From Geoalkalibacter subterraneus (GTDB taxonomy: Bacteria; Desulfobacterota; Desulfuromonadia; Desulfuromonadales; Geoalkalibacteraceae): a DNA stretch of 64,000 nt. The stretch's first letter is position 1. Every line of letters starts with the position of its first letter. This document shows, piece after piece, positions 34,101-34,386 of this stretch. Position numbers and translations under genes: made by a program. The stretch is from contig NZ_CP010311.1 of NCBI RefSeq assembly GCF_000827125.1, positions 2,232,001 to 2,296,000 on the forward strand, given 5' to 3'. The notes below the pieces were generated by a model, which worked only from the letters and a program-made list of their open reading frames with translations, ran no database searches and was not told the origin of the DNA.

Positions 34101-34126
34101 AAAAAAAAGCCCACCAGGAGGTGGGC
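34101..34126 (-). terminator. Rho-independent terminator after the 33-aa peptide gene
   Basis: GCCCACC-loop-GGTGGGC (34109-34126), a perfect 7-bp stem with a 4-base loop, is followed on the minus strand by eight T (34101-34108). It lies 42 bases past the stop of the small gene; on the + strand it lies just after fabH and could also slow that transcript. Confidence 0.85.
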
Positions 34127-34167
34127 GATGCAAGAGAGGAAAGACCGAGAGATTTTTTACAATCCGA

Positions 34168-34269
34168 TCAGCCGACGAAATTGAGGATCAGGGCACCGAA
34201 TCCGATGCAGCTGGCGACAATGATAAAGACCTGTACCGCGAAATAAGATGTCCGAGTTTTCGATTCCAT
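34168..34269 (-). CDS. 33-aa single-helix membrane peptide, unrecognised
   Basis: Too short for ordinary gene calling. The frame runs from ATG 34269 to TGA 34168 and encodes a basic N terminus (MESKTRTSYF), then one hydrophobic helix (about residues 10-30) with Cys21, ending NFVG. AAAAGGAGGCGTC before the ATG is one of the best ribosome sites in the window; a near-consensus promoter lies 37-65 bases upstream and a terminator 42 bases downstream. A complete transcription unit around so short a frame argues that it is real. It does not match CydX, KdpF or other small membrane proteins I know. N-in orientation is likely from the charges. Confidence 0.75.
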   Translation of the reverse strand: MESKTRTSYFAVQVFIIVASCIGFGALILNFVG

Positions 34270-34299
34270 GACGCCTCCTTTTCTGTATATTCCCTTTAG

Positions 34300-34310
34300 A
34301 ACAATGTTAT
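34300..34310 (-). repeat. 11-bp box, promoter-proximal copy
   Basis: ATAACATTGTT on the minus strand. It covers most of the -10 element and the bases up to the predicted start site, where a bound repressor would block RNA polymerase. Its core AACA-T-TGTT is itself a short inverted repeat. An identical copy lies 76 bp upstream. Confidence 0.6.
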
Positions 34311-34334
34311 AACCATAAGGCCAGGTTATGTCAA
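34306..34334 (-). promoter_or_regulatory. Sigma-70 promoter of the 33-aa peptide gene
   Basis: On the minus strand TTGACA (34329-34334), a 17-base spacer and TATAAC (34306-34311): a perfect -35, optimal spacing and a five-of-six -10. The predicted start is near 34299, giving a leader of about 30 bases. Confidence 0.85.
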
Positions 34335-34375
34335 GGTGTTAATTTTTACCATTTCTATTGACAACCATTTTTCAA

Positions 34376-34386
34376 AACAATGTTAT
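34376..34386 (-). repeat. 11-bp box, distal copy
   Basis: A second exact ATAACATTGTT, 76 bp (about seven helix turns) upstream of the copy on the promoter and 28 bases after the ftsH stop. Two identical boxes on one helical face suggest cooperative or looping binding by one regulator. Confidence 0.55.

Follow-up and report, generated by a model that had tools for sequence, protein, structure and literature searches.

A 33-codon membrane peptide gene of the Geoalkalibacter family with a promoter design common to [NiFe] uptake hydrogenase

We describe a 33-codon gene of Geoalkalibacter subterraneus that encodes a single-span membrane peptide, has homologues and evolves under purifying selection, and whose promoter and operator in the sister genus are of the same design as those of a [NiFe] uptake hydrogenase. 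This common promoter design, apparent only through genome comparison, would be the new element; it is pronounced in the sister genus but less so in the genome of the window (the whole 64-kb stretch of DNA that was analysed), where the operators are degenerate. It suggests a small membrane protein whose synthesis is coordinated with hydrogen oxidation and which would help the membrane during growth on hydrogen. The reading we favour, with a probability of roughly 0.46, is that of an inner-membrane one-helix peptide switched by a repressor alongside the [NiFe] uptake hydrogenase and supporting the hydrogen-oxidising chain. Small membrane proteins are difficult to detect, and assigning them a role is more difficult still; here promoter comparison supplies a testable physiological setting, namely hydrogen oxidation in metal- and electrode-respiring bacteria; it also exposes an operator common to uptake-hydrogenase promoters across the order, together with a link to citrate synthase.

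The peptide gene lies on the minus strand of the window at positions 34168-34269 (33 codons plus stop, with the ATG at 34269 and the end of the stop codon at 34168) and encodes MESKTRTSYFAVQVFIIVASCIGFGALILNFVG. Its ribosome site AAAAGGAGG (34274-34282, minus strand) is placed 4 nt 5' of the ATG, the promoter TTGACA-17-TATAAC occupies 34306-34334 (minus strand; -35 from 34334, -10 at 34311-34306), and an intrinsic terminator with a 7-bp G+C-rich stem and a T8 tail is found at 34101-34126 (minus strand), the whole unit from promoter to T8 terminator spanning 34101-34334 of that strand. The near-consensus promoter, strong ribosome site, 33-codon frame and T8 hairpin announced in the original prediction are all there. 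Counting both strands of the 64 kb, TTGACA-N16..18-TATAAY has a single occurrence, at the peptide promoter, and AAGGAGG placed 2-8 nt ahead of a start codon likewise has one in the window, at the peptide gene; the terminator hairpin has a z of -4.86, with none of 200 shuffles folding equally well. A simple promoter scan does not list the promoter, because it demands a T at the final -10 position, where the peptide promoter has a C. The predicted structure is one helix covering residues 3-32 (mean pLDDT 84), and the Kyte-Doolittle maximum is 2.5 over 19 residues. With fewer than 50 residues and one helix, the product belongs with the small single-span proteins, its translation being deduced from selection, and its lysine/arginine-rich start would probably place the N-terminus inside. 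The strong signals make it plausible, as first suggested, that the peptide reaches high levels under some condition, though this is an incomplete account of its expression.

A search of 58 genomes, comprising the window's own and its relatives, recovered the peptide in five of the six genomes of the family, the window's own included, with E values from 6.9e-17 (self) to 5e-4 and one match per genome; the homologues are 36-61% identical to the window's copy. A profile retrieved the same five among 136 genomes of the order at E 2e-20 or better, eight further genomes giving weak matches only (E 0.017 to 0.093). G002, the sole family genome in which the peptide was not found, is only 81% complete. 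Absence of the frame from related genomes had been named beforehand as grounds for discarding the gene, and the frame is conserved. Between G003 and G001 the peptide genes have a dN of 0.06 and a dS of 1.83, 14 of their 19 differences falling at third positions, and between G005 and G004 dN is 0.04 and dS 0.31; codon comparisons that involve the window's copy are at or near synonymous saturation. Twelve residues are invariant (M1, E2, Y9, F10, V12, Q13, S20, C21, F24, G25, A26 and F31). The GGAGG core of the ribosome site is retained in all five peptide-bearing genomes, as are TTGAC and TATAAC of the promoter, at a spacing of 15-17. A G+C-rich hairpin with a T run also follows the peptide gene in the other four genomes; compared with shuffles over longer stretches, these fold with z of -4.21 (G003), -2.28 (G001), -0.13 (G005) and -1.24 (G004), clearly only in G003. 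Conservation, purifying selection and signals kept in five genomes bear out the original view that this is a complete mini-gene whose product is a membrane peptide with one helix, and judged by its sequence the gene is real and independently transcribed.

No known family had seemed assignable, and none was found in Pfam, NCBIfam or PDB sequences. At E<=10, the five members gave only Sublancin (0.14, one member) and SCO4848 (0.019, two members) in Pfam and NCBIfam, scans in which the HMMER filters can lose weak matches, and PDB sequences gave no match. Wider candidate homologues among the relatives, the order, the class and the phylum (E 0.003 to 0.6) were taken as chance. No convincing further relative emerged from 277 genomes of the class or 395 sampled genomes of the phylum, and the profile search did not detect the peptide elsewhere in the order, where many genomes carry both the hydrogenase and the operator. 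At 21 weak-match loci that were read (G193, G238 and G269 were left out), the matches were short, or fell in longer frames or in frames without the peptide layout, and the exact operator was absent within 150 bp upstream of all 21; the most similar frame among them, of 19 residues, is in G349 (L126, E 0.0035). As far as searched, the peptide thus appears to be confined to the Geoalkalibacter family.

The -10 box of the peptide promoter is covered by a palindrome, ATAAC-N3-GTTAT, which is perfect in the four sister-genus peptide promoters. The two operators at the window's peptide gene carry one mismatch each: O1, ATAACATTGTTCT (34298-34310, minus strand), overlaps the -10 box and differs at one position from ATAACNNNGTTAT, and the operator-like O2, ATAACATTGTTTT (34374-34386, minus strand), lies 76 bp upstream of O1. 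In G003 an O2-like site has two mismatches and precedes O1 by 74 bp; G001, G004 and G005 gave none at <=2 mismatches. Since the conserved operator overlaps the -10 box, expression of the peptide gene is probably turned on and off, not constitutively high. On the plus strand, at 34358-34386, a TTGACA and O2 face rightwards, to the antisense side of ftsH; this site may be only an auxiliary operator.

When the six family genomes were searched strictly for ATAACRNYGTTAT, 10 sites came up, four at the peptide, three at the hydrogenase and three elsewhere (citrate synthase in the window's own genome, G000; monomeric isocitrate dehydrogenase in G002; a hybrid histidine kinase in G004), and the backwards-read control of this search returned two, both in G001. 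When the -35 element was included, as TTGAC-N16..21-AACRNYGTTAT, the same genomes gave seven matches, which are the four peptide promoters and three hydrogenase promoters, with none in the control. All seven are in the sister genus, and in that genus the common promoter/operator design (7/7 matches) places the peptide with the uptake-hydrogenase regulon. The hydrogenase gene 3' of the operator is the [NiFe] small subunit (TIGR00391, E 1.1e-132), and the frames that follow it in G006 resemble, by eye, the large subunit, cytochrome b and a maturation protease. Four [NiFe] hydrogenase clusters are reported in G. ferrihydriticus (PMC12016550). A resemblance of the peptide to the C-terminal helix of this small subunit (AFGA motif) was dismissed as not significant, the five peptides giving P of 0.06-0.28 against shuffles.

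Hydrogenase of this type is present in 73 of 134 genomes of the order. From these we read the 30 best-scoring loci and scored 28, omitting L091 (start not found) and L093 (short upstream region). The operator occurs at <=1 mismatch in 17 of these 28 promoters, compared with an average of 0.385 and a maximum of 2 in 200 sets of dinucleotide shuffles; with the three family promoters that gave the lead removed (L065-L067), it is still found in 14 of 25. Among 29 hydrogenase upstream regions, 22 contain the 9-bp core AACRNYGTT. By eye, a TTGAC lies <=35 nt upstream of the operator in 14 of the 17 operator-bearing promoters, for which a repressor blocking the -10 region would be the natural reading. 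Across the class, the promoter search gave 21 matches in 17 of 271 genomes, of which four are at the peptide, seven at the hydrogenase and 10 at neither (L051 being counted among the latter by identity to the L064 match), and the backwards control gave eight, about equal to those 10; the assignment comes from reading 16 of the loci, with four more coinciding with places known from the other searches. The window's own genome contributed no match to the class-wide search or to the TTGAC-N16..21-AACRNYGTTAT search of the family, and no more than the 9-bp core, AACAGCGTT, is seen at its hydrogenase promoter. In G003 a perfect operator accompanies the peptide, and no small subunit of this hydrogenase appears at E<=1e-130 (best 40% identity), which makes it unlikely that the peptide is an obligate hydrogenase subunit. 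From these distributions, the operator seems to be older than the peptide, whose gene would have been brought, within the Geoalkalibacter lineage, under a hydrogenase switch that was already there.

The reach of the operator extends to central metabolism. In five of the six family genomes (L122-L125 among the loci), AACRNYGTT occurs in the 400 bp that precede citrate synthase, with a shuffled mean of 0.155 and none of 1000 sets reaching five; these sites are not independent, three of the five being homologous within one genus. In G002 the core is far upstream (-390), and the full 13-bp operator stands at citrate synthase only in G000, with two to four mismatches in the others. The G000 site is a perfect ATAACGGTGTTAT (L077, G000:C1:1248441-1248453). 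A core ahead of citrate synthase implies a regulator that is not specific to hydrogen oxidation, and suggests one with a scope beyond hydrogen, covering donor choice and central metabolism. The comparison over six genomes strengthened this link, and a small measure of our confidence was consequently moved from the hydrogenase-centred reading to its wider-regulon rival.

We propose that a dimeric putative repressor would obstruct RNA polymerase by occupying the 13-bp palindrome ATAAC-RNY-GTTAT, which covers the -10 box, and that the same switch would govern the membrane-bound [NiFe] uptake hydrogenase. Upon release of this switch, the peptide would enter the membrane together with the hydrogen-oxidising chain and act there as an accessory helix stabilising or tuning a quinone-linked membrane complex. 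The target could be the cytochrome b module of the hydrogenase, where present, or another complex in the same regulon. It is from the promoter design that a role of the peptide as a hydrogen-linked membrane helper is inferred. That it is the dedicated partner of the [NiFe] uptake hydrogenase chain, with a helix tuning or stabilising the hydrogenase-to-menaquinone step and the ATAAC-RNY-GTTAT regulator governing uptake-hydrogenase promoters order-wide, seems to us rather unlikely. Dedicated small-membrane-protein partners are, to our knowledge, known for terminal oxidases and not for hydrogenases.

A tentative but serious alternative is that the peptide assists a different membrane complex within this regulon, such as a menaquinone-linked reductase, and that the hydrogenase is simply another target of a regulator that governs electron-donor choice and central metabolism. 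Retention of the peptide without the hydrogenase in G003 speaks for it, as do the operators ahead of citrate synthase (G000) and isocitrate dehydrogenase (G002) and the AACRNYGTT cores of the five citrate synthase upstream regions; yet once a -35 is required the sister genus yields peptide and hydrogenase promoters only, and the full 13-bp operator precedes citrate synthase in G000 alone. The neighbourhood of the gene offers a further candidate, since the peptide might be a modulator of the FtsH protease, of a kind with other small FtsH-directed membrane peptides, and be encoded beside its target. In the window the gene sits between ftsH and fabH, and ftsH is directly upstream on the same strand in three of the five genomes (G000, G001 and G003), but in G004 and G005 its place is taken by a divergent saccharopine-dehydrogenase/carboxynorspermidine-synthase-like gene (a profile match for the G005 copy). 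The retained side is that of fabH, which is close in all five, adjoining in the window and beyond a small lipoprotein gene in the other four (profiles identified ftsH and fabH in the window; in the other genomes they were recognised by eye). The description "downstream of ftsH" is therefore correct for the window and fails as a stable feature, the link being gone in two of five genomes. This loss makes a partnership with ftsH doubtful; the peptide gene moreover owns a promoter, probably a regulated one, and we regard modulation of FtsH as improbable and ftsH as probably an accidental neighbour. SpoVM is among the small FtsH-interacting peptides; these resemble ours as small membrane peptides, here adjoining ftsH, and differ in that the adjacency is gone in two of five genomes and the promoter design is held in common with the hydrogenase. 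The small lipoprotein-like gene between fabH and the peptide carries the motif LGPPQSIIRP in the sister genus (L002, L003, L004 and L005) and is missing in the window; its G003 copy had no match in Pfam at 1e-5 or in NCBIfam at 1e-10.

The size, single helix, strong expression signals and likely tight control of the peptide would also suit the hydrophobic toxin of a type I toxin-antitoxin pair. Such a function is nevertheless very improbable in view of the low dN/dS, the invariant polar helix residues Q13, S20 and C21, the single match per genome and an operator common with a metabolic operon; the consensus scan, a weak test, lists no promoter on the 3' side directed towards the gene. We give hardly any credence to a small regulatory RNA in which the frame is incidental: the unit is short, with a strong promoter and terminator, but amino acids are kept while synonymous sites approach saturation in most pairs, and the ribosome site persists in 5/5 genomes. 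The favoured reading, a peptide supporting the hydrogen-oxidising chain, has its closest counterparts in CydX (PF08173-type) and CydH/YnhF, the small one-helix subunits of cytochrome bd. These too have about 30-40 residues and one helix and are tied to a quinone-linked respiratory enzyme. They are, however, tied to it by operon and complex, whereas the peptide is tied only by promoter design, and to a [NiFe] hydrogenase as the co-regulated enzyme. Unlike CydX/YbgT, the peptide is without a family profile match (Pfam, NCBIfam, E<=10) and is not beside cydAB, its neighbours being ftsH or the saccharopine-dehydrogenase-like gene on one side and fabH or the lipoprotein gene on the other.

Two known regulons were considered for the operator common to uptake-hydrogenase promoters across the order. 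Ueki and Lovley reportedly described the HgtR regulon of Geobacter sulfurreducens in 2010. A word search of the open-access literature, covering titles and abstract openings, returned nothing on the peptide or the operator, which is not proof of absence. NikR was considered and rejected: it is alike in having a nickel regulon and in coming from the same bacterial group, but the delta-proteobacterial consensus GTGTTAC-N13/14-GTAACAC (PMC545781) differs in half-site and spacing from ATAAC-N3-GTTAT and does not fit it. HgtR is described, in the accessible portions of PMC7894505 and PMC7726332, as a hydrogen-induced repressor acting on citrate synthase in Geobacter. Those portions name no Hya hydrogenase as an HgtR target, and the likeness lies in citrate synthase, which the operator core precedes here in 5/6 family genomes. 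These citrate synthase sites make HgtR a candidate regulator of the peptide operator, as a lead only and with no identity claimed.

Further sites were seen in these genomes. In G002, TTGTATACTGTATACAA followed by the operator ATAACGGCGTTAT stands ahead of the monomeric NADP-isocitrate dehydrogenase (L115, G002:C56:16623-16635), and a near-perfect operator, GTGTAACGTTGTTATA, lies just upstream of a CBS-domain gene (L032, G002:C108:3355-3371). A sequence similar to TTGTATACTGTATACAA, ATACTGTATACAA, is found upstream of the G000 citrate synthase and hints at another regulator of the TCA cycle.
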